Below, one piece after another: positions 9,839 to 45,286 of a stretch of DNA of 48,517 nucleotides. Each line of letters starts with the position of its first letter. The first letter of the stretch is position 1. The stretch lies in contig JAAYLG010000109.1 of assembly GCA_012522075.1 (NCBI GenBank), positions 1-48,517 of the forward strand. Reading direction: 5' to 3'. The stretch comes from Bacillota bacterium. GTDB lineage: Bacteria; Bacillota; Dethiobacteria; Dethiobacterales; Dethiobacteraceae. A model generated the notes under the pieces. It saw only the letters and a list, made by a program, of their open reading frames with translations. It did no database searches and was not told the DNA's origin. Position numbers and translations under genes: made by a program.

Positions 9839-10735
9839 TTACGAAGTAATTTCTTTTAAAACAAAGTCCCGGAATAGTTTGGTCATCTGGGGCAATGTGC
9901 CTCTTCCGGCATGGCCGGTGGGGACTGCCAGACCGTTTTGAACGGTAATTTGCTCCTGCAGCGGCACTATTTTTGTTCCCGGCACCAGCAGTGCTTCAGC
10001 CAGTTTATCCCCCAGCAGGGAAAGACCAAGGCCGTTGGCGACGCAGCGACGAATTAAATCAGCATTGTCGCTTTCCAGAATAATATTTAGTTCTGTTTCG
10101 TTTCGTTTTAGAACATCATCTATAATTTTGTTAATGGAACTGTTAAATTTGAGGCGCAGTAAATTCTGGCCCTTCAGGTCTTTAATGGCAAGGTTTTTTC
10201 TCGCGGCGAGCGGGTGATCGGCCGGCAGCAAGGCAACAACTTGCTCGTCAATGATGGGATAAAAACTGACATCGAATTGCCTGGGAAAAGGAGCACTGAC
10301 AAAAGCCAGGTGAATCCGGCGGCCGCGGATTTCGACAAGTAAATTGTCTGCCGTGTCTATATGCAGCCTCACTTCAATTTTTTTGTGCTCGGCAATAAAC
10401 TTTTTGATCAGATTTTCAAACTTTAAATAAATAAAGGAGGGGACTATCCCCAGGCGCAGGAAACCTTTGTTTAAAGTGGCATACTGTTGCATGGCCTGCT
10501 TGGCCTTTTCTACTTCAGTTACAATATTTCTGGCATAAACCAGAAATTCCTGACCGGGGCGTGAGAGGTAAACCTGCCGTTTATGTCTGACAAACAGAAA
10601 AACTCCCAGTTCGTCTTCCAGGGAAGCAATTTGCTGGGACAGCGTGGACTGGGAAATGTTGATTTCCATTGCCGCCTGTGAGAAAGAACGGTACTTTTCC
10701 ACAGCGAGGAAATATTCAATTTGATGCAGTTTCAT
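9839..10735 (-). CDS. LysR family transcriptional regulator
   Basis: MKLHQIEYFLAVEKYRSFSQAAMEINISQSTLSQQIASLEDELGVFLF N-terminal HTH; start trimmed to Met at 10735. Confidence 0.92.
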   Translation of the reverse strand: MKLHQIEYFLAVEKYRSFSQAAMEINISQSTLSQQIASLEDELGVFLFVRHKRQVYLSRPGQEFLVYARNIVTEVEKAKQAMQQYATLNKGFLRLGIVPSFIYLKFENLIKKFIAEHKKIEVRLHIDTADNLLVEIRGRRIHLAFVSAPFPRQFDVSFYPIIDEQVVALLPADHPLAARKNLAIKDLKGQNLLRLKFNSSINKIIDDVLKRNETELNIILESDNADLIRRCVANGLGLSLLGDKLAEALLVPGTKIVPLQEQITVQNGLAVPTGHAGRGTLPQMTKLFRDFVLKEITS

Positions 10736-10830
10736 TTTAACCACCCCATGCTCTGCCGCAATTACTGGACTATTTCTACAATTAGCACCCATATCCTTTA
10801 TTTGACTGAAAAGAATATGCACTTGCGCAT

Positions 10831-10903
10831 TTATTAATTTTCCCAATAATAACTCTTTGAAAGTTTAATTGAGCCTGGCAGATATATTTGCTATTTATGA
10901 ATA
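10831..10903 (+). promoter_or_regulatory. Predicted promoter/operator copy 1
   Basis: TTGAGC (10869) -17 bp- TATTTA (10892), preceded by TTTTCCCAATAATAACTCTTTGAAAGTTTAA; same layout as copy 2 at 11957-12026. Confidence 0.6.
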
Positions 10904-11020: not shown

Positions 11021-11887
11021 ATGACATTGAATGTTGGTTTTATCGGTGTCGGCAATATCGGGATGGTAATGGCCAAAAGTATACTTAAAGCGGGTATCCC
11101 TTTGGCGGCGTACGACATTAATGAACAGGCGGTTGCCGAAATCGAAGCGGCCGGCGCCCGGGCCATGAAATCGTGCCGGGAAGTTATGGAGGCAAGTGAT
11201 GCTGTTATCACGATGGTACGGGATACTGCCCAAACCGAAAAAGTTGTTTTTGGGGAAAACGGTCTCTGGGAAGGTGCGAAGGAAGGCAGCATTATTATAC
11301 TTGCCAGCACCATTGGCCCGGACTATCCCAGGGAACTACACCGGAAAGGTAAAGAAAAAGGCATCAGGGTTTTGGACATGGGAGTAACAAAAAATATTTA
11401 CACTAATGAAATCGGGCAGTTTACACTGATGGTAAGCGGTGACGATGATGTAATAGACAAATGCTGGCCTGTTTTTACGGCCATGGGCAGGATAGTATTC
11501 AGAGCCGGTAAGATAGGCTACGCACAGGCATATAAGTTGATAAATAACATGATGGCTTTCAACCTGGGCAGTGTGCTGCATGAATGCCTCAATGTGGGGC
11601 TTAAAGCCGGCTTGGATATGAAGATGATGCTGGATATAATGCACGAAGGTACCGGTGCCAGCTGGATGGCAAACAGTATGCGCAATTTAATTGCCTCCGG
11701 CAGGAGGCGGCGTCTACCCAAAATGGATGATACGAGGAAACCGGCAAGGTTCATTAATAAAGATCAGGTTTTGGCCCTCGAACTGGCGGAAAAAGTGGGG
11801 GCAAAAGTTCCGTTGGCCAAACTGATTGAACAGCTTGACGAAGCTGAAACATATGACTCCTTTATCAGTTTTATGAGTGGAGAATAG
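11021..11887 (+). CDS. NAD(P)-dependent oxidoreductase, 3-hydroxyisobutyrate dehydrogenase family
   Basis: VGFIGVGNIGMVMAKSILKAG Rossmann motif and GYAQAYKLINNMM substrate/catalytic motif. Confidence 0.9.
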   Translation: MTLNVGFIGVGNIGMVMAKSILKAGIPLAAYDINEQAVAEIEAAGARAMKSCREVMEASDAVITMVRDTAQTEKVVFGENGLWEGAKEGSIIILASTIGPDYPRELHRKGKEKGIRVLDMGVTKNIYTNEIGQFTLMVSGDDDVIDKCWPVFTAMGRIVFRAGKIGYAQAYKLINNMMAFNLGSVLHECLNVGLKAGLDMKMMLDIMHEGTGASWMANSMRNLIASGRRRRLPKMDDTRKPARFINKDQVLALELAEKVGAKVPLAKLIEQLDEAETYDSFISFMSGE

Positions 11888-12230: not shown

Positions 12231-13922
12231 ATGTGCGGAGGAAAAAGGTCGTTATTAAAAACTATTACAGTATCACTGGTAATTTTCCTAGCCGTGCTGC
12301 TCTTCCTGTCAGGTTGCAGCGGTAAAAATGAACCAGCGAACCAAAATGATAACAATAACAATAACAGCCAGATCGAAAATAATGCCAATAACGAAGAACC
12401 GGTTGCTGAAGGTCCCAGACGGGGGGGAGAGGTGCACTTTTACTATGATCAGGACCCGACTACGTTTTTAGTGGGGACATTGTCGCAGCCGGGCGGCGGC
12501 ATTGGGACGTATTTTTACCCCGGGTTAATCCGCCTGGATCTTGATCGCAATCCTCATCCTTATGCAGCAAAGAGTTGGGATATTTCTGAAGACTCGCGGA
12601 GAATTACATTTTACCTGCGGGATGATATCAAGTTTACGGATGGCGTGCCCCTTACTTCTGCCGATGTCAAATGGACTTTTGAAGAGATATCTGCCAAGCA
12701 CAGTGCGCAGATGACGCCAGTCTTTAAGCAGGTTACTTCAATAGAGACTCCTGACGATTATACAATAGTCCTGAACTTTGACCAGCCTTACGGGCCGCTG
12801 TTTGTTCTTTTATGTGCCCCCTATTTTGGGATTCATCCCAAGCATAGGCTTGAAGGGAAAGATCTACTGACAGACCCGGATGCCATGCTGGATGCAGTGG
12901 GCTGGGGGCCCTTTAAGCTGGCCGAATGGAAAAGTGGCGAGTATATCATCCTGGAAAGAAATGAGGACTACTTCGAGGAGGGGAAACCTTATCTGGACAG
13001 GATTATCTTCAGGATGATTACCGATACGACAGCCCAGCTATATGCTTTTGAAAACCAGGAAATAGACTCAATGGGGGCAACAGGAGCAGGCGGCATCTTG
13101 GAGCATATCCCCAGGCTGAGAGAACTTCCTTTTGTAGGTTATAGGGAAGGACTGGCAGATCCGGCAGGAATGGACCTTTTCTTTAATCTGAAGAATGATA
13201 AACTGTCGAAATTCGAAGTGCGGGCAGCCATCTGCCACGCCATTGACCGGGAATTGATCAATGATATGGTCTGGATGGGTCTGGGAATACCGGCGATCAG
13301 CCATTTTTCCCCGGAATTTGGTAATTTTTACAACCCCAAGGTAAACCTCCTGCAAAAGTATGAATATAACCCCGCGAAGGCGGAAGAAATGCTTGATGCC
13401 GCCGGTTATCCGAGGGGAAGCGACGGTACCAGATTTGAGTTGAGGCTGATTACCTCCAATACAAACCAGTATCTGAAAAATGCGCAGGAAGTTATTATAG
13501 ACCAGTTAAGGGCTGTAGGAATCAAAGTGATACCCGAGAATTTTGATGTTACAGGCATTACACAACGGGTATACGAAAGCCATGACTTTGACATGAAAGT
13601 ATGGCACTGCACCCAGGGTGCAGACCCGATTATTGGTGTAGAGCGCTGGTGTTTGAGCGACTATTACGGTTCCGGACGCTTTGCCCAGAACCCGACAGGT
13701 TATGCCAACGAGAGGGTAGATGAGCTGTTCTGGATAGCTAAAACCAGTGCAGTACCTGAAGAGCGGATTTCAGCTTTTCATGAGATTCAGGAGATCCTGG
13801 CAGAGGAAATGCCTTACCTGCCGCTCAATAACCCGCCCTCAATTGGATTGTATAATAACCGCATGCAGGATTACGGCTTTTATCTTAACCATTTCATGCA
13901 GGATGTTTGGGTAAAAGAATAA
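12231..13922 (+). CDS. ABC transporter substrate-binding lipoprotein, peptide/nickel family (SBP family 5)
   Basis: Lipobox LFLSGC; DIKFTDGVPLTSADVKWTFEE and AICHAIDRELIND motifs. Confidence 0.92.
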   Translation: MCGGKRSLLKTITVSLVIFLAVLLFLSGCSGKNEPANQNDNNNNNSQIENNANNEEPVAEGPRRGGEVHFYYDQDPTTFLVGTLSQPGGGIGTYFYPGLIRLDLDRNPHPYAAKSWDISEDSRRITFYLRDDIKFTDGVPLTSADVKWTFEEISAKHSAQMTPVFKQVTSIETPDDYTIVLNFDQPYGPLFVLLCAPYFGIHPKHRLEGKDLLTDPDAMLDAVGWGPFKLAEWKSGEYIILERNEDYFEEGKPYLDRIIFRMITDTTAQLYAFENQEIDSMGATGAGGILEHIPRLRELPFVGYREGLADPAGMDLFFNLKNDKLSKFEVRAAICHAIDRELINDMVWMGLGIPAISHFSPEFGNFYNPKVNLLQKYEYNPAKAEEMLDAAGYPRGSDGTRFELRLITSNTNQYLKNAQEVIIDQLRAVGIKVIPENFDVTGITQRVYESHDFDMKVWHCTQGADPIIGVERWCLSDYYGSGRFAQNPTGYANERVDELFWIAKTSAVPEERISAFHEIQEILAEEMPYLPLNNPPSIGLYNNRMQDYGFYLNHFMQDVWVKE

Positions 13923-13933
13923 GTTACAGGAGC

Positions 13934-14069
13934 GGCCCTGCTGCCATGGTATGAGTGTTTAAAAAAGCGGCGGCAGGTATCGAACGGCTGGAGGTGCTTC
14001 ATTGTCTTGCAGCAGGGTTCCAGAAAAGCGCCTCCAGCTGTTCCTGTTTTAGCAGGAAGATGCCGCCGC
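13934..14069 (+). ncRNA. Candidate structured 5' leader/cis-regulatory RNA of the UGSC gene
   Basis: Four complementary pairs in 136 nt: 13936-13944/14009-14017 (9 bp), 13967-13975/14061-14069 (9 bp), 13985-13999/14026-14040 (15 bp with two G-U), 14041-14046/14053-14058 (6 bp). Confidence 0.5.
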
Positions 14070-14107
14070 CTGGAAACAAAGGACTGCAAAGCAAGGAGGG
14101 ATTTCTC

Positions 14108-15724
14108 TTGACAATGGAACAAACTGTTTACACCTGTCTTGATCCAAGAGGCGAAATGCAGAATATTCAGCTTTCTCCCCTTAGTGCACGTGCGGATGAT
14201 CTGGACGGAAAAACTGTTTATTTTGTGGATAATGGTAAAAACGGCGCGGAACCGATTTTAAAAGCTCTCATGGAGCTGATGGAAAAAGACTACCCGGAGG
14301 CAAAACTGGTTTATTACCCTAAGACCACTGCTTATGCCCGTCCTGAGCCGCAAAGCTGGTGGCAGGAACTGGAAAAAAATGCCGCTGCAGCCGTGGTAGC
14401 TGTCGGTGATTGAGGTTCCTGCACCATGTGGATTATCCACATGCAGGTTGAAATGGAAAAAAGAGGTATACCCACTGTTTCCATTATTACTACACCTTTC
14501 ATCCGGGACGCTGCGGCCTCGGCGGAAATGTTCGGCTATCCCGGAGTGCGCAGAGTAGTGCTGCCTCATCCGGTCGGTGACATGGCCCGAAAAGATACCC
14601 CGGCCAAGGTTAAAGCGGCATACAGCGACATTGTCAGTGCTCTTACGGCACCTTTAACAGAAGAAGAAAGCAGGACAGGTGTACAGAAAGCCATCCCCCG
14701 GGAAAGAATTGCTTGCAGGGGTACTATTGATGAGGTTTATAAATTTTTCGTTGAGAAAGGAATGTGTGACGGTCTGCCCATTGTTCCGCCCACAGAGGAA
14801 AGAGTAAAAAGAATGCTTGAGGGAACAAGCCATCCTCCTGATGAAGTTTTGGGAAAAATGGATCCTGAACAGTGGGAAGTTACTGTGGAAAAGGTGGCAA
14901 TCAATGCCGTAATGTGCGGGTGCCTTCCCGAATATATGCCTGTCCTGTTGGCACTGGCCGAGGCGTTAATTGATCCCAGAACGGCGACGGGGACATACGT
15001 CCGCAGTACCAGTTCGTTTACTTTCTGGTCGGTGGTAAACGGCCCTATAGCAAGGGAAATCGGCATGAATGCCGGCAATAATGCCTTGGGCCCCGGCAAT
15101 AGAGCCAATGCCACGATCGGTCGGGCCATCAGGATGTTTTTAATCAATCTGGGCGGAACCGAGCCGGGAGTGAACGATATGTCGTCAATCGGTAATGCCC
15201 TGAAGTATGGTTTTGCTTTTGCGGAAAACGAAGCAGAAAGTCCCTGGGAACCGTATCATGTCACCCATGGATTTAAGCCGGAAGAGAGCACCGTCACCGT
15301 TTTTAAGTCGTGGGGTTTCCGTCCTACATCAATAGCCGCCGGCAGAGGGATGGGTTTGGCCAATATCGCCTGGAATGCCCAGGTTGTAGGCGGCGGGATG
15401 GTCATCCTCATGGACCCGCTGTTGGCAAAACAGCTGGCCGAACGGGGGATAACGAAAAAGAATATCCAAGAATTTCTTTACCAGAGCATGCATAGGAGCG
15501 TGCGAGTTTGGAAAAAGAACCCCAACTTTCGTCATGCTTTTATTGAATCAGGTGTCCCGGCATGGTACGAAGAACTCGCTGATGATGTTATAATTCCCAG
15601 GTTGGCAGGCCTGGACAGCGTGCAGACAATTGTTGTCGGCGGCCAGAACAATCCTTTTTACCAGCTGTATGATGCTACGCCGCCAGTAAAAGGAACAACC
15701 ATCTCTGTTGACAAATGGCGGTAA
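14108..15724 (+). CDS. UGSC family selenoprotein (in-frame UGA at 14411-14413 read as Sec), fused to a C-terminal CDGLPIVPPT domain
   Basis: ORFs 13955..14413 and 14426..15724 are in the same frame, joined by TGA GGT TCC TGC ACC ATG = U-G-S-C-T-M. AGGAGGG at 14094-14100 supports a TTG start at 14108 (ATG alternative at 14114). yedE/yedF present in the same window. Confidence 0.88.
14414..14447 (+). promoter_or_regulatory. Candidate bacterial SECIS hairpin
   Basis: Immediately after the UGA: CCTGC(14418-14422)-ACC bulge-ATGTGGA(14426-14432)-TTA-TCCACAT(14436-14442)-GCAGG(14443-14447); 12 bp with a short apical loop. Confidence 0.72.
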
Positions 15725-15798: not shown

Positions 15799-16782
15799 AT
15801 GATGAGGAAAACAAAGTCGATTCCTGTTTTTATCCTGCAGCGTATCCTACAGGTCATTCCCATAGTGCTAGGAACAATTTTCATTACTTTTCTTCTTTTG
15901 GAACTCAGCGGGGATCCCATCACCGCCCTTGGCGGCGATTTCGCCTTACCCGATGAAACTGTTGAGCACTTAACCAAAGCTTACGGCCTTGACAAGCCGG
16001 TCTATCAACGGTTTTTCATTTATATCTCAAAGGTGTTGCGGGGGGATTTCGGCTATTCCTATAAACAGGGACGCCCTGTCATGGAAATAATCATGGAACG
16101 CATGCCGGCTACCATTCTGTTGGGAGCGGCAACGTATGTTATCAGCACCATACTTGGCGTCGCCATGGGAGTAATAGCATCACTGAAGCCGCGGTCCTGG
16201 CTTGACAACCTGATTGTAACCCTGTCGGTGATGGGTTTTTCCACGCCTGCCTTTTGGTTTGCCCAGTTATCCATTTTTATTTTCTCCGTCCTGCTGGGCT
16301 GGCTTCCCGGATTTGGTATGCGTACCCTTGATTTGGTGGATACAAGCCTGCTAGCGGTTATTATTGACCGAGCCAAATATTTGATTTTACCGGCTTTTGT
16401 TCTTTCCATTAATGGTCTGGCCACCCTCGCCCGCGTTACCAGGGCCAACATGCTGGAAGTTATGCACAAAGATTTTATCACTACAGCAAGGGCAAAAGGC
16501 TGTTCCGAATTTGCCGTGCTGATTCGCCATAAATTACGCAATATTATGCTGGTTCTTATCACCTTGATAGGGCTGCGGGCAGGGATGCTGGTGTCCGGTT
16601 CTGTCCTGATAGAAACTGTGTTTTCCTGGCCGGGTGTGGGCAGGCTGATGTACAATGCCATCAGCAGCCGTGATTTCCCCGTTGTGCTGGGCGGGTTTTT
16701 AATCACGGCCGGGATGACAATTTTTATCAATTTGACAACAGACATCTTGTATACAATTTTAGATCCACGTGTCAGGTACTAG
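15799..16782 (+). CDS. ABC transporter permease, DppB/OppB-like
   Basis: VIPIVLGTIFITFLLLELSGDP N-terminus and ARAKGCSEFAVLIRHKLRN EAA loop. Start trimmed to MMRKTK. Confidence 0.9.
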   Translation: MMRKTKSIPVFILQRILQVIPIVLGTIFITFLLLELSGDPITALGGDFALPDETVEHLTKAYGLDKPVYQRFFIYISKVLRGDFGYSYKQGRPVMEIIMERMPATILLGAATYVISTILGVAMGVIASLKPRSWLDNLIVTLSVMGFSTPAFWFAQLSIFIFSVLLGWLPGFGMRTLDLVDTSLLAVIIDRAKYLILPAFVLSINGLATLARVTRANMLEVMHKDFITTARAKGCSEFAVLIRHKLRNIMLVLITLIGLRAGMLVSGSVLIETVFSWPGVGRLMYNAISSRDFPVVLGGFLITAGMTIFINLTTDILYTILDPRVRY

Positions 16783-16828
16783 ACTGCTTCCGGCGACACG
16801 CAACATTAACTACGTAGGGGGCGTAAGC

Positions 16829-17740
16829 ATGGAAATGCAGACAAGCAGGCAAGTACTGCATAAGAAAATGGAAATGGGTTTTTCCGTTCGTCTGCATAAA
16901 TTTTTCGTATCCGCAGTGGATTTCTGGAGACGTTACAAAAAAACAAAGACTGCCGTCTTTGGCTTGGTAATAATTCTGATTTTTGCTTTTATTGCCATTA
17001 ACGCTTCATGGCTGGCACCTTACGATCCTTACCTAATAACAAGGGAAAGGTTTGCTCCGCCATCTGCCAAACATTGGCTGGGAACCGACGACATGGGCAG
17101 GGATATTTTAAGCAGAATTATTTACGGCTCAAGAGTTTCTCTGAGTATTGGTTTTATTATAGCAGCCCTATCCATGACCATTGGTATTGTTATCGGTGCT
17201 GTTTCCGGTTACTTCGGGGGAAAAGTTGATACCCTGCTGCAGCGGCTGGTGGAAATGGTCCAGATGTTGCCCAGCCTGGTACTTATAATTGTTGTGTTGC
17301 TATTACTGGGGGGCGGCATAGACAGGATTGTTATTATCATGGGGCTTTTAGGCTGGACGGGAACAGCCCGTGTTGTCAGGGCTGAATTTCTTTCCCACCG
17401 GGAGCGGGAATATGTAGAGGCAGGCAAGGCATTAGGTTTCAGCAAGTTTCATATTATTTTCAGCGAGATTTTACCTGCCGTGATTCCGACAGTACTAGTC
17501 ATTATGGCAATGAATATTTCCGGGGCGATTTTAATGGAAGCCGGTTTAAGTTTTTTAGGTCTGGGCGATCTCAGTGTTATTACCTGGGGGCAAATGCTGC
17601 AAAACGCCCAGAGGTGGCTTTCCCAGGCATGGTGGATTTCATTCTTCCCGGGACTGGCAATTTTCCTCACCGTGCTCAGCTTTAACCTGATAGGAGACGG
17701 TATTAACGACGCAATCAATCCTTACCTGAAAGAGAGATAA
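16829..17740 (+). CDS. ABC transporter permease, DppC/OppC-like
   Basis: HWLGTDDMGRDILSRIIYGSRVSL and EYVEAGKALGFSKFHIIFSEILP motifs. Confidence 0.9.
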   Translation: MEMQTSRQVLHKKMEMGFSVRLHKFFVSAVDFWRRYKKTKTAVFGLVIILIFAFIAINASWLAPYDPYLITRERFAPPSAKHWLGTDDMGRDILSRIIYGSRVSLSIGFIIAALSMTIGIVIGAVSGYFGGKVDTLLQRLVEMVQMLPSLVLIIVVLLLLGGGIDRIVIIMGLLGWTGTARVVRAEFLSHREREYVEAGKALGFSKFHIIFSEILPAVIPTVLVIMAMNISGAILMEAGLSFLGLGDLSVITWGQMLQNAQRWLSQAWWISFFPGLAIFLTVLSFNLIGDGINDAINPYLKER

Positions 17741-17776: not shown

Positions 17777-18787
17777 TTGATGAATGATTTGCTCTTAAAT
17801 ATCAAAGGGCTGAAAACTTACTTTAATTTAACGCGGGGAGTTCTCCGAGCCGTGGATGGCGTTGACTTAAAAGTGGGGGCCGGTGAAATTGTGGGCCTGG
17901 TGGGTGAATCGGGATGTGGGAAATCAGTTTTGGCCCGCTCTGTCCTCCGCCTGTTGCAGCATCCCGGGTATATTGCAGCAGGTGAAATAATCTACGAAGG
18001 AACAGACCTCTCTAAATTGCCTGATGAAAAGATGCGCGAACACCGGGGGAAAAAAATTGCCATGGTGTTCCAAGATCCCCTTGGCTATTTAAACCCTGTT
18101 ATGAAAGTAGGCAGTCAGATTGAAGAAGCATTGCGAATACACCGGCCAAATGAAGATCCCGGTAAAATTATCCCTTTACTCCTGGAATCTGTTGGTTTCC
18201 CGCGGTCTGCCCGTATCTGGGACAGATATCCCCATGAGCTTTCAGGCGGAATGTTGCAAAGGGTGATCATTGCCCTTGCCATCTCCTGCGACCCGAGACT
18301 GCTAATTGCCGATGAGCCTACAACCGCCCTTGATGTGACCATTCAGGCACAGGTATTAAGGTTGCTGAAAAGGCTTTGTAAAGAACGGGAAATGGCCATG
18401 TTGCTGATTACCCACAATCTGGGCATTGTTGCTGATACCTGCGACCGCATTTATGTGATGTATTGCGGAAGGATTGTTGAAACTGCCGATGTCTTTTCCC
18501 TTTTTGAAAAACCTTACCATCCTTATACCAGAGGCCTGCTGGAAGCCACTTTAAGTATTGATGAATTCCGCGAAAACTTGACAACCATAGAGGGCACCGT
18601 TCCTGACCCTATTAACCTGCCGCCCGGGTGCAGGTTCGCACCGCGCTGCTCTGCCGCCCGTTTAGTTTGTACGCAAGCGGATCCGCCTTGTCTCACTATT
18701 GATGCCTTAAAAGAACATGTGGCTTACTGCTGGATCGGCACGGCCGAATATGAAAAAAGTGCTGCTCCGTTGACCACTGCCATTTGA
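17777..18787 (+). CDS. ABC transporter ATP-binding protein, DppD/OppD-like
   Basis: Walker A GESGCGKS, signature LSGGMLQR, Walker [14 protein letters not shown]-terminal oligo/dipeptide ATPase motif CRFAPRC. Confidence 0.93.
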
Positions 18788-18845
18788 GGATACGGCTTCT
18801 TTAGGGCAGACAATGCCTTATCTATCTCTGGAAGGGGTGGCCCAT

Positions 18846-19847
18846 ATGTCCGAAGCAAATGGGACAATTATGAAGGCTGAAAATGTTGTCAAACTGTTTC
18901 CGGTGAAAAAATCATCTCTACTTGCTGCATTAACCAGAAAACCGCCAGACTATGTTCACGCCGTTGACGGCGTTTCACTTGATGTCCAAGTCGGTGATAC
19001 AATTGCCATTGTGGGGGAAAGCGGTTCAGGCAAAACAACCCTGGCCCGCGTAATGCTTAATTTGATAGAACCGACGTCGGGAAAGGTAATCTGGCGGGGG
19101 AAAGATGTGTCCACCTTGGATAAAAATGAGCTCTTTCAGTTCCGTAAAGATGTTCAGATTATCTTTCAGAACCCGGGAGGAGCTTTAAACCCCCGTAAAA
19201 GTATTTTTAGGATTCTCAGTGAACCGCTAAAACTGCATTTTAATATTAAATCCGGGAGCGAACTGGTTGACAGGGCTTCCGAAGCGCTGCTGGCGGTAGG
19301 CCTCAACCCGGCCATACACCTGGACCGCCATCCTCACGAATTTAGCGGAGGACAGCGCCAACGTATCTGTATTGCCAGGGCTCTTTCCTTGGGAGCAAAG
19401 ATTATTTTTGCCGATGAACCTGTCTCGTCACTGGATGTTTCCATTCAGGCACAAATCCTGATTTTAATGAAAAAGCTGAAAGAAGAATTTGGCCTCACCT
19501 ACATTTTTGTTACCCACGACCTTGCTTTAACACGCTCCTTTGCTTCCCGGGTATACGTTATGTATCTCGGCGAGATAGTTGAGAGCGGTCCTGTTGAAGA
19601 TATTTTTATGGAACCCCTCCATCCTTACACCAAATTGCTTTTGGCATCGACCCCTGTCCCCAATCCCAAACGAGCTCGCAGCAGAGAAACAATAATTCCT
19701 GTGGGAGAAATTCCTTCACCGATCAACCCGCCGCCTGGTTGTCGCTTTCATACGCGCTGTGCCCTGGCAAAGGCAATATGTAAAACCGCAAAACCGGTTG
19801 TTAAAACCGTAGGTAACCGCTCTTTTGCATGTCACCTGGTCAATTGA
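18846..19847 (+). CDS. ABC transporter ATP-binding protein, DppF/OppF-like
   Basis: Walker A GESGSGKTT, signature FSGGQRQR, Walker B IIFADEPVSSLD, CRFHTRC. Confidence 0.93.
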   Translation: MSEANGTIMKAENVVKLFPVKKSSLLAALTRKPPDYVHAVDGVSLDVQVGDTIAIVGESGSGKTTLARVMLNLIEPTSGKVIWRGKDVSTLDKNELFQFRKDVQIIFQNPGGALNPRKSIFRILSEPLKLHFNIKSGSELVDRASEALLAVGLNPAIHLDRHPHEFSGGQRQRICIARALSLGAKIIFADEPVSSLDVSIQAQILILMKKLKEEFGLTYIFVTHDLALTRSFASRVYVMYLGEIVESGPVEDIFMEPLHPYTKLLLASTPVPNPKRARSRETIIPVGEIPSPINPPPGCRFHTRCALAKAICKTAKPVVKTVGNRSFACHLVN

Positions 19848-19921: not shown

Positions 19922-19949
19922 GACTGCATTTACTATGCGGTCTTTTTTT
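19922..19949 (+). terminator. Intrinsic terminator after the ABC operon
   Basis: GACTGCAT-ttact-ATGCGGTC followed by TTTTTTT (one G-U pair). Confidence 0.75.
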
Positions 19950-30908: not shown

Positions 30909-32114
30909 ATGCCGCTTTTTGCATATCAAGTACTTGACAAGGGCGGTGAGGTGGTAACAGGAAAGTTGGAAGCGGAAAGCGACCTGGCGGCTGCTGCACG
31001 TTTGGTTAAACTTGGTTATACGCCGGTAGAAGTGAATGAGATAAAGACTTCATTGTGGGCCCGATTGTTTCAGTTTCAAAGGAAAGCCGGCATTGGGGAG
31101 CTGGCGCTTTTTAGCCGGCAGTTGGCGGCAATGTTGAGTGCCGGTATTCCGCTGACCAGATGCCTCTATGTCCTGGGGGAACAGGCAGCGACTCCTGTCT
31201 TGGGCGAAGCTCTACCTGCAGTGGCCAGAAGTGTGGAAGGTGGCATGAGCTTTTCCCAAGCGCTGCGGGCTTACCGGGAAATATTCTCCGGGATATATGT
31301 GGAGCTGGTGCATGCAGGGGAAGTGGGGAGCACACTGGAGACGGTTTTGGTCAAGCTGTCTCAGCAGCTGGAAAGTGAAAAGATGCTTAGGGACAATATG
31401 CGTGCAGCCATGTTTTACCCTTTTATGGTCCTGGCTTTTGCCGTCCTGTTGATGATTGCCATGCTGCTTTTTATCGTTCCCGTGTTTGTGGGGTTCTACC
31501 CGGATGGCCACGAACTGCCTTTTCTGACAAGTTTCATTATTGCCCTCAGTGATTCTGTTCGTGCCTACTGGTATTTATATTTTTTGGGTGGTGCGCTGTT
31601 TGTTACGGGGCTTCGGGCATATATGGCCGGACCCGGCGGGCATGTTTACGACAGGTTGAAATTTAGAATCCCTGTCTTTGGCCCCCTGGTCCAGAAGATA
31701 GTGATTGCTCGTTTTGCCAGGACGTTGTCCGCCCTGCTTGCCGGGGGGATTCCAGTCCTGCAGGCATTGGAGACGGCGGGCCCGGCGGCGGGAAGCAGTC
31801 TTGTGCTGGAAGCTGCCCGCTATGCCAGGGAACGTATCAGGGAGGGACAAAGCATTGCCCGGCCGCTAAAAGAAAGCGGCCTTTTCCCGCCCATGGTAAC
31901 ATTAATGATTTCCGTGGGGGAAGAAACGGGAGATGTGCCCGGGCTTTTAAACCGGGTGGCAGAATTTTATGAACAGGAAGTGGCGGCTTTGTCAAAAGGG
32001 CTGACGAGCCTGATAGAGCCGGTCATGATAATTGGTGTAGGCGGGATAATTGCGGTGATAGTCATTGCCCTTTATCTCCCCATGTTTTCAGTTATTGCCA
32101 CCTATCAGCATTAA
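30909..32114 (+). CDS. pilC: Type II secretion F family / PilC inner membrane protein
   Basis: FSRQLAAMLSAGIPLTRCL, FARTLSALLAGGIPVLQAL, ISVGEETGDVPGLLNRVAEFYEQEV. Confidence 0.93.
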   Translation: MPLFAYQVLDKGGEVVTGKLEAESDLAAAARLVKLGYTPVEVNEIKTSLWARLFQFQRKAGIGELALFSRQLAAMLSAGIPLTRCLYVLGEQAATPVLGEALPAVARSVEGGMSFSQALRAYREIFSGIYVELVHAGEVGSTLETVLVKLSQQLESEKMLRDNMRAAMFYPFMVLAFAVLLMIAMLLFIVPVFVGFYPDGHELPFLTSFIIALSDSVRAYWYLYFLGGALFVTGLRAYMAGPGGHVYDRLKFRIPVFGPLVQKIVIARFARTLSALLAGGIPVLQALETAGPAAGSSLVLEAARYARERIREGQSIARPLKESGLFPPMVTLMISVGEETGDVPGLLNRVAEFYEQEVAALSKGLTSLIEPVMIIGVGGIIAVIVIALYLPMFSVIATYQH

Positions 32115-32128
32115 GGGGACAAGTTGGC

Positions 32129-32827
32129 ATGCCGGTGCGGCGGGAAAATTTGGACAGCCTGTATTACCGCTACAGTAGCAGTCTCAGCGAAGAAGACTTG
32201 GCAGGGCTTGTTACCGCCGCCGAGCGGCTGGTACGGTATTATGCCCGCCTTTATACCGGCGGGGCGGCGGAAGATGTGATGCAGGCGGGAAGGGAAGGGT
32301 TGATGAAGGCGGTGCGCAGGTTTGATGCCGGCCGGGGAGTTGCATTTTCTACATATGCGGCGCACTGCATTATGGGAGAGATCAGGCATTATATCCGCAA
32401 GGAGGCATCTTACTACAGGCCAGGGGTGATAAAAGATCTGCAGCACAAAATTGACGCTTACGTGGAAGCGGTGGTGAAGGAAAAGGGCGAACCGCCGGAG
32501 CTTTCGGAGATTGCTGTTCACCTGAATGCCAAGGAGGAAGGTATAATCGAGGCCATGCGTGCCGGGCTGGTCTCTTTGGAGGAAATTGATGTGAAGCAGA
32601 TACAATCGCTGCATTATGAAAGCTTCCGGCTGCCTATAGAAGATAAAATCTGGCTGGAAGAGGCATTAAACCGGTTAAGCAGGCTGCAAAAAAAGGTGGT
32701 TTATTTATTGTTTTACAGGGATTTGACGCAGTCGCAGGCAGGCAAATTGCTGGGAATCAGCCAGCGCCGCGTGTCCAGGATTCTGCAAAAGAGTTTGCAG
32801 CAGCTTGCGAAAATGTTGAAGGTCTGA
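32129..32827 (+). CDS. Sigma-70 family sigma factor (group 3-like) within the pilus operon
   Basis: AGREGLMKAVRRFDAGRGVAFSTYAAHCIMGEIRHYIR (region 2) and LTQSQAGKLLGISQRRVSRILQKSLQQL (region 4). Confidence 0.88.
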   Translation: MPVRRENLDSLYYRYSSSLSEEDLAGLVTAAERLVRYYARLYTGGAAEDVMQAGREGLMKAVRRFDAGRGVAFSTYAAHCIMGEIRHYIRKEASYYRPGVIKDLQHKIDAYVEAVVKEKGEPPELSEIAVHLNAKEEGIIEAMRAGLVSLEEIDVKQIQSLHYESFRLPIEDKIWLEEALNRLSRLQKKVVYLLFYRDLTQSQAGKLLGISQRRVSRILQKSLQQLAKMLKV

Positions 32828-32843
32828 TGCGGAGGGCATTTTT

Positions 32844-33863
32844 ATGGGACTGTGGGGGCGTAACGGAATTGTCGGTGTGGAACTGGACTCGAGAATGCTC
32901 CGGGCCGTGGAAGTAAAAGGCAAGAGCAGTAAACCGTGTGTTGTGGGAGCCGGCCGGGTGCAAGTACCGGAAGGTGCCGTATCTGACGGGGTAGTCAATG
33001 ATGCAAATGCGGTGGGCAAAGCTTTGCAAAAGCTCTGGCAGGAAGCAAAGCTTGGGAGCCGCCGGGTTGCGCTGGGAATATTTAACCGGAGCGTGTTAGT
33101 GCGCATGATTACTTTCTCCCGGCTTCCGGAAGAGAAACTGAAAAAAGCGCTGCACCTGCAAGCTGGGGAGTATCTGCCCGTTCCCGTCTCGCAGATGGTG
33201 CTGGATTTTGCCGTGGTGGGAAGCGTTGACAACGAACGGCTGAATGAAGTGCTGCTGGTGGCTGCCGGGAGAGAGGAGCTCACGGCCGGCCTGCAAGCCC
33301 TTTTGCACGGTAAACTGGCGCCTGTTGTGGTGGACGCGTCCCCGCTGGCACTGCCGCGGATCCTGCCGCCGGCAAAACGGCAGGGAACCACAGCGATAGT
33401 GGATCTGGCCAAGGGGACAAGTAGTATTGTCATAGCTGCAAACGGAATGCCGCGTTTTGCCCGCATGCTGCCTGTGTCGCTGCAGCAGTGCCTGAAAAGC
33501 CTGGGAGTTGCCACGGGCGGAAACGGGCGGCATGTCAAGTTTGTGGCGGCTGCGGCGGAAAAGAATACGGAGGAGGATGTTTATGTCCGGCACTGGAGCA
33601 AAATGGTTGCCCGTGAAATCAAGATTTCCCTCGGTTATTATGTACGGCATGACAGGTTCCGGGAAGTGGACAGACTGGTGCTCAGCGGCCGGGGGGCGGG
33701 TGTTACCGGGCTGGCGTCACTGTTGCAGGAGGAGCTGCAACTGCCGACTGAAGTGGCTGTACCACAGGCTGCCGTCAGCGTGCAGGGGGAACTGAGTGTT
33801 GACCTTTCACAGCCGGAATTTGCTGTCAGCATGGGCTTGGCGCTGCGCGGGCTGGAGGTGTAG
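32844..33863 (+). CDS. pilM: PilM-like pilus assembly ATPase-fold protein
   Basis: GIVGVELDSRMLRAVEVKG, KALHLQAGEYLPVPVSQMVLDF; gene order pilC-sigma-pilM-N-O-B. Confidence 0.85.
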   Translation: MGLWGRNGIVGVELDSRMLRAVEVKGKSSKPCVVGAGRVQVPEGAVSDGVVNDANAVGKALQKLWQEAKLGSRRVALGIFNRSVLVRMITFSRLPEEKLKKALHLQAGEYLPVPVSQMVLDFAVVGSVDNERLNEVLLVAAGREELTAGLQALLHGKLAPVVVDASPLALPRILPPAKRQGTTAIVDLAKGTSSIVIAANGMPRFARMLPVSLQQCLKSLGVATGGNGRHVKFVAAAAEKNTEEDVYVRHWSKMVAREIKISLGYYVRHDRFREVDRLVLSGRGAGVTGLASLLQEELQLPTEVAVPQAAVSVQGELSVDLSQPEFAVSMGLALRGLEV

Positions 33864-33865
33864 GT

Positions 33866-34441
33866 ATGGTTAAAATTAACCTGCTGCCTGCTGAATTTGT
33901 GGCGGAACAAAGGCGGAAGTTATTGCAGAATCGCTGCCTCCTGGCGGTTTTGCCCTTGGTGGCACTGTTGTTTTGCATATCCGGCAATTTATATTGTCTT
34001 GCGCAACAAATGGCGGCTGAAATTACTGTTATGCAGAAACAGCTGGAGTTTGTGGAGAGGGAAGTTGAAAAGTATGGACCGTTTTTGGAGTTGCAAAGAT
34101 GTGTCAGCTTGAAAAAAAACTTGCTGGCGGTGGCCATGGGAGCTGAATTTGGTTGGCGGGAGATGCTTGCCGCCTTGGAAACACGGATTCCGACCAATGT
34201 CCGGCTGACAAACCTGGAGCTTGTTTTTAACGGCTTGCCGGGCACTTTGACACTGTATGGGATGACAGACAGTCATCCTGCCGCGGCAGGATGGGCGGAA
34301 GCGCTGGAGGCTGTCCCCGGTATATCCGGTGTGCAAATCAGTTTTTCTACAGTGGAGCAAGGTGATGACGGCAAGCAGGTTCGTTTTAAACTGTGGGCAC
34401 AGATATTTTCCCGGCAACCGGCCGGGTGGAGTGAAAAATGA
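33866..34441 (+). CDS. pilN: PilN-like protein
   Basis: MVKINLLPAEF N-terminus, single TM, coiled segment. Confidence 0.82.
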   Translation: MVKINLLPAEFVAEQRRKLLQNRCLLAVLPLVALLFCISGNLYCLAQQMAAEITVMQKQLEFVEREVEKYGPFLELQRCVSLKKNLLAVAMGAEFGWREMLAALETRIPTNVRLTNLELVFNGLPGTLTLYGMTDSHPAAAGWAEALEAVPGISGVQISFSTVEQGDDGKQVRFKLWAQIFSRQPAGWSEK

Positions 34442-34962
34442 TGAAATGCAGGCAGCCTCCACAGATACTGTTTGTTTTGTTTTTTCTCCTGGCGGCGGCA
34501 AGTATTTTATGTTGGCTGCAGTTTCATGACTGGCGACGGCAAAAAGAAGCGCTGGCGGCAGCAATACAAGGGCTCCAGGCAAGTGAAAGAAGACTTGCCG
34601 TGCTGCAGGAGCAAAAGCAAGAGGAGGAGCAGCTGGCAGCGGAACTTGTAGTGCTGAACCGGCTTTTACCGGATGTGCCGGCTGAGGGAAGGCTTTTGGT
34701 GGATTTGCAAACCGGGGCGGATCTGGCGGGGATGGCATTTTTGCAAATCCGTTTTGGAGAGCATGTTGACCGGCTGGAGTATATGGAAATCCCACTGGAG
34801 ATACAGCTTGAAGGGACATATTTTGAGTTTTTGGCTTTTCTTGATTACCTGAAACTGTCGGAACGGGCCATGCGCCTGCAGGAAATACGCATGGATGAAA
34901 ACGAAAAGAAGGAAAACCTTGCTGTCAGCATTAAGGCAAGCGTATTTTACCTGCCGGATTAG
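34438..34962 (+). CDS. pilO: PilO-like protein
   Basis: Position after pilN; TM + coiled-coil; YFEFLAFLDYLKLSERAMRLQEIRM. Confidence 0.75.
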   Translation: MMKCRQPPQILFVLFFLLAAASILCWLQFHDWRRQKEALAAAIQGLQASERRLAVLQEQKQEEEQLAAELVVLNRLLPDVPAEGRLLVDLQTGADLAGMAFLQIRFGEHVDRLEYMEIPLEIQLEGTYFEFLAFLDYLKLSERAMRLQEIRMDENEKKENLAVSIKASVFYLPD

Positions 34963-34988
34963 AGACGTTGCATGAGGTGAGGGCAAGT

Positions 34989-36692
34989 ATGAGGCAATAC
35001 GGGCAGGATTTTTTGGGGAGGCGTCTAGTTCAGGAAAAAATTATTACAGAAGAGCAGCTGAAGGAAGCAATGCATTACCGGGAAAAGGATGGGGGCGACA
35101 GGCTGTCTCTGGGAAATGTTCTTGTCCGGCTGGGGTTCTGCAAGGAAGAAGATATTGCCAGGGCAGTTGCCCGGCTGGCCGGTGTTCCCTTTCTCAGTCT
35201 GAAAAACTATCCCATCAATGAAGCGGCCATGGCAACCGTTCCAGCAGAAATTGCCAGGCGATACAAGGCGCTGCCCATTAATTTTTCAGAAGACGGGAGT
35301 CTGCTGGTGGCCATGGAGCAACCTCTGGATATTTTTGTTCTGGATGACCTGCGAGTGCTTACGGGGTACAATATTCAGGCAGTGGTGGCGACCGGCAGCG
35401 AGCTGGAGGCGGCAATCAACAATTACAGCCAGGCCAGTGTCAGCGTGGAAGGTGTGGCGGGAGATAACTTTAACCCGGAGGAAGAACCGGCGGAAGAAAC
35501 GCTTACTGCGTCTCTTGATGCGGAAAAACCTGCCGTTCAACTGGCCAACATTATCCTCTCACAGGCGGTGAATGTGAAAGCCAGTGATGTCCATCTTGAA
35601 GTTTATGAAAAAACATTAAGAGTACGTTTTCGTATTGACGGCGTTCTCCATGATGTGATGCACCCGCCGCGGCGGATGCATGGCCCGCTGGTTTCCCGTT
35701 TTAAAATTATGGCCAATATGAATATTGCGGAGCGGAGAGTCCCTCAGGACGGGCGCATGTCGATCAGGGTGGAAGGACGCACAGTGGACGTGCGGGTCGC
35801 TACCCTGCCTGCCAGTTATGGTGAGCGTGTCACACTTCGCCTGTTGGAACGCAGCGACCGGGCCATAACGCTTGGGGAACTGGGGGTGGCGCCGCAGATC
35901 CTGGAGAAATTTAAGCAGCTGATTAATCTGCCATACGGCTTTATTCCTGTGACGGGACCAACAGGGAGCGGTAAAAGCACCACCCTCTATGCCAGCCTGG
36001 CGGCAGTGGACAGGGTGGCCAAAAATGTTGTTACAATTGAAGACCCGGTGGAATACCGGATGGAAGGGATTAACCAGATACAGATCAACCCTAAAGCCGG
36101 TCTGACTTTCGCTTCCGGTTTACGTTCCATCCTGCGCAGCGACCCTGACATTATCATGGTAGGAGAAATCCGTGACCGGGAAACGGCCCAAATTGCCATA
36201 GAGTCGGCGCTGACAGGCCATTTGGTATTTGCCACATTGCATACAAATGATGCGGCGGGAGCCATCAGCCGTCTGACGGAGATGGGAGTGGAACCGTATC
36301 TGACAGTCTCCTCGGTTGTTGGGATTCTGGCCCAGAGATTGGCACGTAAACTGTGTCCGCAATGCAAGGAAGAATATTTTATCAACCGGGAGATGGCGGC
36401 CAAGCTGGAGGATTTTCCGCTGGAACCGGGAGAAGACAAGATAAGGCTCTTCCGCCCGCACAAAAACGGCTGTATCTGCTGCAACAATACAGGTTATGCC
36501 GGCAGAATTGGTATTTTTGAGTTGCTGCTTGTAACAGAAGGGGTTCAAAAACTTGCCCTGGAGCAGCGGTCGGCGGCGGAAATAAAAAGTCTGGCAATAA
36601 AAGAGGGCATGGTTACACTCCGTCAAGACGGTTTACACAAGGCAAAGCAGGGGATTACATCAATTGAAGAAGTATTGAGGGTGGTTATGTAA
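34989..36692 (+). CDS. pilB: GspE/PilB type II/IV secretion ATPase
   Basis: GPTGSGKSTTLYASL Walker A, IEDPVEYRMEGINQIQINPKAGLTFASGLRSILRSDPDIIMVGEIRD, CPQCKEEY..CICCNNTGY zinc motif. Confidence 0.95.
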   Translation: MRQYGQDFLGRRLVQEKIITEEQLKEAMHYREKDGGDRLSLGNVLVRLGFCKEEDIARAVARLAGVPFLSLKNYPINEAAMATVPAEIARRYKALPINFSEDGSLLVAMEQPLDIFVLDDLRVLTGYNIQAVVATGSELEAAINNYSQASVSVEGVAGDNFNPEEEPAEETLTASLDAEKPAVQLANIILSQAVNVKASDVHLEVYEKTLRVRFRIDGVLHDVMHPPRRMHGPLVSRFKIMANMNIAERRVPQDGRMSIRVEGRTVDVRVATLPASYGERVTLRLLERSDRAITLGELGVAPQILEKFKQLINLPYGFIPVTGPTGSGKSTTLYASLAAVDRVAKNVVTIEDPVEYRMEGINQIQINPKAGLTFASGLRSILRSDPDIIMVGEIRDRETAQIAIESALTGHLVFATLHTNDAAGAISRLTEMGVEPYLTVSSVVGILAQRLARKLCPQCKEEYFINREMAAKLEDFPLEPGEDKIRLFRPHKNGCICCNNTGYAGRIGIFELLLVTEGVQKLALEQRSAAEIKSLAIKEGMVTLRQDGLHKAKQGITSIEEVLRVVM

Positions 36693-36744
36693 TGGAACGA
36701 AATCTTACTATAAACCTCTACAAAGCGGGAAGGTCCGTGCGCTG

Positions 36745-37491
36745 ATGCTGGGACCGGCGGCGTTTACTTGCGGCTTGCTGTGCGGATCATTTCTAAATGT
36801 TTGTATTTACCGCCTGCCAAAAAAAGCGTCGGTAATTTCCCCGCCGTCACACTGTCCTGCCTGCGGCCGGAGACTGCGTGTGGCGGAGCTTGTACCGGTG
36901 GTTAGCTACTTGTGGCAGAGGGGGCGCTGCCGCAGCTGTGGTGTTGCAATTTCCCTACGTTATTTGCTGGTGGAAATTTTAACAGGTTTTGTTTTCACCG
37001 CTTTGGACTGGCGTTTCGGCTGGCCTGCCATCTTGTGGCATGCCCCTTTCTTTGCAACCCTTATTGTTATTTTTTTCATTGACTTGGACTGCCAGGTAAT
37101 TCCCAACCGTTTGGTACTGTTGCTTGCCGCTCTCATGCCTGTACGCCTGCTGGCCGGGGAAGTGCTTTTCCTGCAGGCGGCGGCGGGGATGCTGCTTGGC
37201 GGCGGGCTTTTTTACATGCTGGCTGTGCTGAGCCGGGGTGGCATGGGAGGGGGAGATGTTAAGCTTGTCACTGCTTTGGGGCTGTGGTATGGCTGGAAGC
37301 TGTTGCTCCCGGTTATCTTTCTTGCTTTTTTTTGCGGCGGTGCGGTTGGACTTGTTCTTATGGCCCTGAAAGTAAAAAAGCGTAAAGATGCAATTCCTTT
37401 TGGCCCATATCTGGTGCTGGCTGCATTTTTTGTCAGCATGTGGGGCGAGCAGCTTGTCAACTGGTATCTGCGCATAAGCGGCCTTATTTAG
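36745..37491 (+). CDS. pilD: Prepilin peptidase (A24 family)
   Basis: GSFLNVCIYRLPKKASVISPPSHCPACGRRL and GGMGGGDVKLVTALGLWYGW. Confidence 0.93.
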   Translation: MLGPAAFTCGLLCGSFLNVCIYRLPKKASVISPPSHCPACGRRLRVAELVPVVSYLWQRGRCRSCGVAISLRYLLVEILTGFVFTALDWRFGWPAILWHAPFFATLIVIFFIDLDCQVIPNRLVLLLAALMPVRLLAGEVLFLQAAAGMLLGGGLFYMLAVLSRGGMGGGDVKLVTALGLWYGWKLLLPVIFLAFFCGGAVGLVLMALKVKKRKDAIPFGPYLVLAAFFVSMWGEQLVNWYLRISGLI

Positions 37492-42976: not shown

Positions 42977-43114
42977 GTCTCAAGCGGCGATTTCCGCCTG
43001 CGGGCGGCGCGTAGCCTGCAAAGCCGGGACAAGTTCAAGCCGGTCCGGCCTGCCACAGACATGTTTCTGGCATAAAGGGTGGCATGTCCCCATATAGATA
43101 TAGTGGTGATCGTA

Positions 43115-44110
43115 ATGGAAGAGACAGGCTGGCAAAAACATATTGTGCCGCTTGTAGCGCCAAGGGTCCGGGCGGCACTGTCCGCCCTGCCGCCGGAGGT
43201 GGCGGGGGAACTGGAGGAAATCCGGCTGCGAGCGGGACAACCCTTGCTTTTGCAAACCGGACGGGGAGAATTGTTTGGCGGGGAGTACGGGGTGGCGAAG
43301 ACGGCGGCGGAGGCGCTGCGTTTGACGGCCGCGGAACTGCAGCAGATACTTTTGGCCATGACGGAATTTTCCCTCTATGCGCGGGATGAAGAACTAAAAC
43401 GCGGCTACCTTGCCCTGCCCGGCGGGCACAGGGCAGGTTTTGCCGGGCGGGCGGTGCTGGAAGACGGCAGGGTAAAACTGCTGCGTGACATTAACGCTGT
43501 CAATATCCGCATTGCCCGGCAAATCAAGGGGGCGGCGCTGCAGCTTCTCCCTCATGTTTACTGCCGGCAAAAGAAGCGAGTCTACCATACGCTGCTTGTC
43601 TCGGCGCCGCAGGCGGGAAAAACCACCATGCTCCGGGACCTGGCCAGATTGCTCTCCAACGGTGATGCCAGGGAAGGACGCCCCGGGATGAAAGTCGGTA
43701 TTGTGGATGAGCGGTCTGAAATTGCAGGTTGCTTTCGGGGTGAACCGCAGCTTGACGTGGGGATGCGCACCGATGTCCTGGACGGTTGTCCCAAGGCGGA
43801 AGGCATGATGATGCTGGTACGTTCCATGTCGCCGCAGGTGTTGGTAACGGATGAGCTGGGAAGGCCCGAGGATGTCCGGGCGGTGGAGGAAGCCGTCACG
43901 ACGGGGGCCAGTGTGATAACCACTGCCCACGGGCAAAACGCCGCGGAGCTCATAAAACGCCCCGGCCTGGCATATTTATTGGAAAATGCTTTTTTTGAAA
44001 GGGTTGTTGTTTTATCCAGGCGCCACGGTCCCGGAACCATTGAAGCAGTATATGCGGGGGAGTCCGTCCGCAAGTGGTGGCGCACGGAGGGTAAGGGCAA
44101 TGTGGGTTAA
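43115..44110 (+). CDS. spoIIIAA: Stage III sporulation protein AA
   Basis: EEIRLRAGQPLLL, SAPQAGKTTMLRDLARLLS, GIVDERSEIAGCFRGEPQLDVGMRTDVLDGCPKAEGMMMLVRSMSPQVLVTDE. Confidence 0.96.
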   Translation: MEETGWQKHIVPLVAPRVRAALSALPPEVAGELEEIRLRAGQPLLLQTGRGELFGGEYGVAKTAAEALRLTAAELQQILLAMTEFSLYARDEELKRGYLALPGGHRAGFAGRAVLEDGRVKLLRDINAVNIRIARQIKGAALQLLPHVYCRQKKRVYHTLLVSAPQAGKTTMLRDLARLLSNGDAREGRPGMKVGIVDERSEIAGCFRGEPQLDVGMRTDVLDGCPKAEGMMMLVRSMSPQVLVTDELGRPEDVRAVEEAVTTGASVITTAHGQNAAELIKRPGLAYLLENAFFERVVVLSRRHGPGTIEAVYAGESVRKWWRTEGKGNVG

Positions 44111-44624
44111 AGCTTTCGGTGCCATGCTGATTTTGTCCGCCACAATCATGTGGAGCAATACGGAGATTGCCAAGCTGCGCGGCCGTCTCCGGCAGCTGGA
44201 AGAGTTCCGCCTGGCGCTGCGTTTGCTGGCGGCGGAAATTGGCTATACGGCTACGCCGCTGCCGCGAGCCCTGGAGCAGGTAGCTTGCCGCCTGGAAACT
44301 GATGCAGTGCAATCTTTTTTTCTTTCTGTCGCCGGCAGGCTGCAGGGAGAGGCAGCGGCTGATGCGGGAGCGGCTTGGCTGGAAACGGTCCGTAACCTGC
44401 AAAGCAGGCTGCAGTTGACGGCAAAGGACTGGGCGGTGCTTTCCCGGACGGCGGCCGGACTGGGCGGCCTGGGTAGGGAAGACCAGCTGAAACAATTAAA
44501 CGCGGCGGAGGCACAGCTGGCGTCCCATGCCGCGGCGGCGGCCGCACAGGCGGCCAGCGGGGAAAAGATGTGGCGCTACCTGGGAGTGTTGTCGGGGTTG
44601 GGTGTAGTGATCCTGCTGCTCTAG
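44100..44624 (+). CDS. spoIIIAB: Stage III sporulation protein AB
   Basis: RLRQLEEFRLALRLLAAEIGYTATPLPRALEQVA; operon position. Confidence 0.93.
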   Translation: MWVKAFGAMLILSATIMWSNTEIAKLRGRLRQLEEFRLALRLLAAEIGYTATPLPRALEQVACRLETDAVQSFFLSVAGRLQGEAAADAGAAWLETVRNLQSRLQLTAKDWAVLSRTAAGLGGLGREDQLKQLNAAEAQLASHAAAAAAQAASGEKMWRYLGVLSGLGVVILLL

Positions 44625-44650
44625 CGTGATTCCGGGAAGGAGCGAAAAGC

Positions 44651-44854
44651 ATGAACGGTTTCAATGTTGATCTCATCTTCCGCATTGCAGGCATCGGTAT
44701 TTTTATTTCCGTACTGAATATTGTCCTGAAGCAAGCCGGGAAAGAAGAGCAGGCACAAATGCTGACCCTGGGCGGGGTGATTGTGGTGCTGTTAATGGTT
44801 ATCCAGCTGATTAACGAACTTTTCTCCAATATTAAAACTATTTTTAACCTGTAG
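44651..44854 (+). CDS. spoIIIAC: Stage III sporulation protein AC
   Basis: VDLIFRIAGIGIFISVLNIVLKQAGKEEQAQMLTLGGVIVVLLMVI. Confidence 0.96.
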   Translation: MNGFNVDLIFRIAGIGIFISVLNIVLKQAGKEEQAQMLTLGGVIVVLLMVIQLINELFSNIKTIFNL

Positions 44855-44892
44855 TACCCGCAAGGGAGGAAGCACGGGAAAGGAAGAGTTTA

Positions 44893-45279
44893 GTGGAAAT
44901 TATCCGGATTGTGGCTTTTGCACTGGTTGCCGCCTTTTTGTCCATGGTGTTGCGGGAGCATAAGCCTTTTTATGCCACCATGGTTGCCGTGGTGGCGGGT
45001 GTGTTGATTTTCCTGCGTGTTGTTGCCTACTTGTCGTCACTGATCTCCTACCTGCTGGAGATTACTTTGCAGACCAGCATCTCCCTGGTCTACCTGAACA
45101 CACTGCTGAAAATTATCGGCATTGCCTATATTGCCGAATTCGGCTCCCAAATCTGCCGTGATGCGGGTGAAAATGTTATTGCCGGCAAGGTAGAGTTTGC
45201 CGGCAAACTGTTAATCCTGGTACTGGCCATACCGCTGCTAACGGCTGTGCTGGAAACGATTCTCAAATTTGTGCCGTAG
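44893..45279 (+). CDS. spoIIIAD: Stage III sporulation protein AD
   Basis: LLKIIGIAYIAEFGSQICRDAGENVIAGKVEFAGKLLIL; GTG start. Confidence 0.95.
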   Translation: MEIIRIVAFALVAAFLSMVLREHKPFYATMVAVVAGVLIFLRVVAYLSSLISYLLEITLQTSISLVYLNTLLKIIGIAYIAEFGSQICRDAGENVIAGKVEFAGKLLILVLAIPLLTAVLETILKFVP

Positions 45280-45286
45280 GTGTGTC

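Follow-up and report, generated by a model that had tools for sequence, protein, structure and literature searches.

The question raised by this locus is whether the window (the whole stretch of DNA analyzed, 48,517 nucleotides) holds, at positions 14108-15724, two short genes or one gene read through an internal TGA. The sequence-only reading had proposed that a TGA splits a single frame, and its coordinates, translation and length of 538 amino acids all proved right; the hairpin with its unusual loop, the Opp array, the expansion of paralogues, the split forms and the relation to GrdB, all described below, go beyond that reading. On the forward strand, the open reading frame 13955-14413 ends in AAAAVVAVGD followed by TGA, the frame then resumes with GSCTMWIIHMQVEMEKRG, and it closes with TAA at 15724. 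Taken as one coding sequence from a TTG start at 14108, the gene contains this single in-frame TGA, and its 538 codons show no further damage to the frame; a Shine-Dalgarno-like AAGGAGG (14093-14099, + strand) lies 8 nt 5' of the TTG. Based on the sequence evidence presented below, 14108-15724 is best described as one gene, in which the TGA at 14411-14413 most likely encodes the selenocysteine (Sec) of a U-G-S-C motif, and whose two-domain product, a UGSC domain followed by a C-terminal domain (CTD), belongs to an operon-like oppA - UGSC-CTD - oppBCDF arrangement. That the protein is a UGSC-family selenoprotein with a C-terminal partner domain has high probability, and to the overall explanation, which places this selenoprotein in an Opp array and includes the mechanism proposed below, we assign a probability of about 0.7.

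One coding sequence across the TGA

The TGA falls inside the Pfam UGSC domain PF24696 (14135-14647, + strand), whose profile spans the junction (residues 61-231 of P0001, the TGA being residue 153) with 138.7 bits against a cut-off of 25. Together with the U-G-S-C motif at the junction, this match bears out the family membership suggested from the sequence. The NCBIfam model UGSC_fam (NF041046) gave 121.4 bits (E 3e-35), narrowly below its equivalog cut-off of 125. Homologues spanning the junction were also found, including L017 (85% by tblastn), apparently from the congener G002, and L018 (75%), both of which align end to end with the window protein and carry the TGA at the identical place. 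Between the window gene and L017, dN was 0.076 and dS 0.585 upstream of the TGA (dN/dS of approximately 0.13), and 0.053 and 0.621, respectively, downstream of it (approximately 0.09). As the ratio is low on either side of the TGA, both halves are under selection as protein.

It could be argued that the TGA is a true stop, with re-initiation at ATG 14426 yielding two proteins, as split two-gene forms of the family are known: in haloarchaea (L019-L022), the UGSC domain and the CTD are encoded by neighboring separate genes, with Cys replacing Sec, and they are also split in G067 (L077) and G010 (L100). However, these forms break between the two domains rather than at the site of Sec, 14426 has no Shine-Dalgarno sequence ahead of it, the UGSC profile runs unbroken across the TGA, and homologues with Cys in place of U exist, so that re-initiation is very improbable. 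Genome-wide reassignment of TGA to another amino acid is hardly credible at all: apart from the in-frame TGA itself nothing speaks for it, while the adjacent opp genes, read with the standard code, have their full length and no internal TGA, haloarchaeal homologues carry Cys at the site, and SelA, SelB and SelD are encoded in the genome.

Recoding hairpin and selenium machinery

Directly 3' of the UGA lies a stem-loop, CAUGUGGA-UUA-UCCACAUG, predicted to act as a bacterial SECIS hairpin (14418-14447, + strand, core stem 14425-14443), with a perfectly paired stem and UUA as its apical loop, against GUN in relatives. Across 16 loop-registered copies, 89% of cells are paired and 8 of 8 pairs have changed on both sides, with the caveat that, for copies outside the UGSC register, the offset was picked by pairing and by the loop GU, which biases the whole-set score towards structure; ten copies share the register of the window and required no offset. 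This covariation score was reached in none of 500 shuffles, and slid structures came nowhere near the observed value. Hairpin and covariation agree with the SECIS stem-loop expected directly 3' of the UGA in a bacterial selenoprotein.

The loop itself is unusual. Positions +23/+24 from the UGA read U-U in the window and G-U in all other register-matched copies; the first of the two, at 14433, is T in the DNA of the window and G in that of these relatives. The bacterial SECIS model includes a G within the first two loop positions (PMC13188914), and the loop G has been described as invariant (PMC4607533). With the stem fully closed, the window has no such G; if the closing G21-C27 pair is taken as open, it retains a G at loop position one. 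The T at 14433 may be either a natural loop variant or the mark of a decaying copy.

Regarding the selenium machinery, contig C75 of the source genome carries selA, selB and selD in one cluster, each above its curated cut-off, and the selD gene carries a TGA of its own. The search for selA, selB, selC and selD suggested along with the original reading was thus successful for three genes, found clustered, and not for selC: no tRNA-Sec above cut-off was found in the 93%-complete source assembly, and neither Aragorn nor Rfam detected one on the sel contig. In a search of relatives, 17 of 26 genomes had a tRNA-Sec above cut-off, including both congeners. Contig C211 corresponds, starting at its base 128, to the surroundings of the tRNA-Sec of the congener, its last 127 bases, at the contig end, being unrelated. 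We attribute the missing tRNA-Sec to a gap in the assembly, which is probable given its presence in both congeners, or to a rearrangement, neither of which is proven by C211; cases where the tRNA-Sec was simply absent from an assembly have been reported (PMC5330540).

These observations bear on the possibility that the window copy is decaying, having lost its loop G, so that UGA would mostly act as a stop and leave a 101-aa fragment. The U for G at hairpin position +23, unique among register-matched copies, and the lack of a tRNA-Sec in the source assembly are in line with decay, but the stem is perfectly paired, dN/dS downstream of the TGA is approximately 0.09, the 538 codons are otherwise free of frame damage, and selA, selB and selD are intact; decay is, in our view, quite improbable. 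Selenocysteine at the TGA, as originally proposed, is instead supported by the retention of the TGA in L017 and L018, the purifying selection acting before and after it, the covarying hairpin, and the presence of genes for SelA, SelB and SelD.

The UGSC domain and its relation to GrdB

The predicted model of the UGSC domain (pLDDT 75.5, moderate confidence) alternates strands and helices in a doubly wound, flavodoxin-like alpha/beta fold, and places Sec102 where a strand ends and a helix begins. This model, in which a thioredoxin fold was not recognized at that moderate confidence, does not fit the likely thioredoxin-like fold stated for UGSC in PMC2398784. That statement and the UxxC motif would favor the view, found in the selenoproteome literature, of UGSC as a thioredoxin-like antioxidant or thiol-disulfide oxidoreductase with the CTD as an accessory partner. 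We consider this unlikely: besides the doubly wound model with Sec following a strand, the matches of the UGSC domain in the PDB are weak and to mixed alpha/beta folds, its profile relatives are GrdB and PrdB and not thioredoxins, and its neighbor genes encode transporters and dehydrogenases.

The UGSC domain bears a resemblance to the Sec region of GrdB. On that region, the GrdB-type profiles TIGR01917 (26.6 against a cut-off of 602, E 2.6e-6, a weak match) and TIGR01918 (21 against 65) both stayed below their cut-offs, and the U of the GrdB genes of three genomes (G133, G141 and G144) aligned onto the U of the window protein. With GrdB and PrdB, the substrate-specific selenoproteins of glycine-type and D-proline reductases, the window protein shares a C-terminal UxxCT region aligning Sec on Sec, and one UGSC-CTD homologue sits in a Grd-like operon. 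Yet it has no counterpart of the N-terminal part of GrdB, scores far under the family cut-offs, and comes from a genome in which GrdA, GrdB and GrdC were not found. With the UGSC family (PF24696/NF041046) it shares the full-length domain match across the TGA, the U-G-S-C motif and the hairpin 3' of the UGA; it differs in adding a CTD of approximately 334 aa beyond both profiles, in its score below the NF041046 cut-off, and in having paralogues with UDGC, UPGC, UIGC and other motifs.

The C-terminal domain

The joined frame also corroborates the fusion of the UGSC domain to a C-terminal extension, the CTD of approximately 334 aa (14720-15721, + strand), with conserved DGLPxxPPT, AVMAGxxP, (N/S)GP and ENE motifs. 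Beyond residue 205 or so of the 538, neither a Pfam or NCBIfam model nor a credible PDB sequence match was found, and PDB sequence searches with the whole protein and with both domain alignments, UGSC and CTD having been aligned separately from each other, returned nothing credible. Across 49 sequences, the best-conserved features are DG-P--PPT, AVMAG--P, GP, N, R and E, and no Cys is invariant. We weighed and discarded the idea that the CTD carries a pyruvoyl group or a redox Cys, as its best conserved Cys occurs in only 27 of the 49 sequences. The AlphaFold model of the CTD, built on a ten-sequence alignment, is unreliable (pLDDT 54) and too poor to interpret. Since the two domains are fused in some organisms and encoded by adjacent split genes in others, their arrangement indicates that UGSC and CTD act together.

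Homologues and variation at the Sec site

UGSC-CTD homologues were found in 19 of 150 related genomes, the good matches mostly having exactly one in-frame TGA. Among approximately 48 homologues, which are not independent as several come from sister species, the Sec site is occupied by U in 33 (window counted), Cys in 7 and Met in 6, the remainder having Ala or not being alignable. The U-bearing homologues display UGSC, UGTC, UDGC, UPGC, UIGC, USSC and UNCC motifs, and the haloarchaeal ones have Cys. Six homologues (L106, L107, L108, L109, L111 and L112) keep both domains with Met (MGTS) at the Sec position, where a form with neither a selenium nor a sulfur nucleophile thus persists; one of them, L109, is from the source genome and lies beside oppABCDF. 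Given Met at the site in these six, Sec is dispensable in some members of the family.

Two-domain gene copies are numerous, with approximately eight loci in G002 and four to five in the source genome. An extra UPGC copy in the source genome (L102, G000:C46), which has a frame break as well as a TGA and a TAG, is possibly a pseudogene or an assembly error. Two UDGC-type copies in tandem (L078, L079 and L084) are flanked by short-chain dehydrogenase genes.

Gene neighborhood

The UGSC-CTD gene is flanked by oppA and oppB in an Opp-type array on the forward strand. This array comprises an Opp/Dpp/Nik-type ABC substrate-binding protein of the SBP_bac_5 family (oppA, 12231-13922), OppB-like (15799-16782) and OppC-like (16769-17740) permeases, and OppD-like (17777-18787) and OppF-like (18813-19847) ATPases. 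For oppB, the ATG at 15799 follows GGAGGTGAAA, the longest open reading frame starting at 15715. A terminator-like hairpin 3' of oppF (19922-19942, + strand) is a consensus match only, such hairpins being as numerous as in shuffles. Upstream of the array lie a gene for a 3-hydroxyisobutyrate-dehydrogenase-family protein (11021-11887, + strand), a 68% identical relative of which adjoins the UGSC/CTD pair in L100, and a divergent LysR-type regulator (9839-10846, - strand). Elsewhere in the window, the stretches 30909-37491 and 43079-46450 contain type IV pilus/type II secretion genes (T2SSF, PilM, T2SSE and prepilin peptidase) and spoIIIA genes (AA and AE), the latter indicating a spore-forming lineage.

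Of 45 loci, nine have a cluster of at least two Opp genes: those of the window, L017, L022, L075, L081, L084, L099, L105 and L109. The window and L017 loci are orthologous, and one of the nine belongs to a haloarchaeon. No OppB or OppC was found in 212 kb of control stretches, and the source genome has only approximately eight SBP_bac_5 genes, while two of its UGSC-CTD loci (on C201 and C71) each adjoin such a gene. The neighborhood of the close relative L018 contains no Opp genes. In our literature search, no paper connecting UGSC with Opp transporters was found.

A different context is seen in the complete genome G022 (L086, G022:C1:2571000-2588000), where the UGSC-CTD gene is part of a Grd-like reductase array. 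There it lies between genes for a TRAP transporter and an MtaA/CmuA-family methyltransferase and those for GrdE/FarE-like, GrdB-like, thioredoxin reductase, GrdA and GrdC-beta proteins. A local GrdA/B/C pathway role in the source genome was rejected, as GrdA, GrdB and GrdC were not found in it, the same GrdA/GrdC search being positive in G022, G133, G141 and G144; because of this absence, it is improbable that the window protein supplies the acetyl-phosphate branch of glycine reductase. For the reduction of fluoroacetate, a Grd-type system has been put forward (PMC10838667; FarE model), and therefore the substrates of Grd-type systems appear to vary.

Proposed function

Our best guess, drawn from sequence comparisons, is that the protein would be a reductase that acts through Sec on an imported small molecule and works without a Grd complex. 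The Opp transporter would import a small organic or peptide-like substrate, which the CTD may help to bind or activate. The Sec selenolate, at the helix start of the GrdB-related alpha/beta domain, would attack an activated C-X bond; the selenenyl-sulfide would be resolved by the Cys three residues after Sec, and cellular thiols or thioredoxin would re-reduce the enzyme. Unlike in glycine reductase, the product would not be passed to GrdA/GrdC, because both are absent from the source genome. Taken alone, this sequence of import, CTD binding, Sec attack and Cys resolution is tentative, and we would not be surprised to see it replaced.

A broader proposal, somewhat more doubtful still when all its parts are taken jointly, is that UGSC-CTD proteins make up a large and diversified class of reductases, each a single polypeptide dependent on Sec, which would have arisen from the Sec domain of GrdB or in parallel with it and would cleave activated bonds in substrates delivered by dedicated transporters without a GrdA/GrdC relay. 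In such a class, the CTD would be a new domain serving catalysis or the handling of substrate, and the window copy may also show that SelB tolerates a hairpin loop lacking the canonical G.

Significance for the UGSC family

The UGSC domain is already known, and its fusion may not be new in itself: a 2008 study of Global Ocean Sampling data (PMC2398784, Fig. S1A) presents UGSC fused to an uncharacterized conserved domain, 'Unknown_1'. Both fusions join UGSC to an uncharacterized conserved domain, although the likeness of 'Unknown_1' to the CTD is by description only, and the text of that study has no operon, split forms or paralogue expansion. In the literature searched, we found neither the paralogue expansion, the motif diversification and the coexistence of fused and split forms, nor the Opp linkage and the membership of a Grd operon. 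What is new is a CTD with no Pfam, NCBIfam or PDB relative and a two-domain gene that reaches approximately eight copies per genome with varied UxxC motifs, together with split haloarchaeal Cys pairs, recurrent Opp-type ABC neighbors and, in a complete genome, one glycine-reductase-like operon.

According to PMC2398784, UGSC is among the most abundant selenoproteins of marine metagenome data, and its function is uncharacterized. Most UGSC-CTD genes would be split by standard gene callers. The fusion partner, the recurrent transporter neighborhood, the Grd-type operon in one genome and the many Sec paralogues are leads to the substrates and the chemistry of this family.
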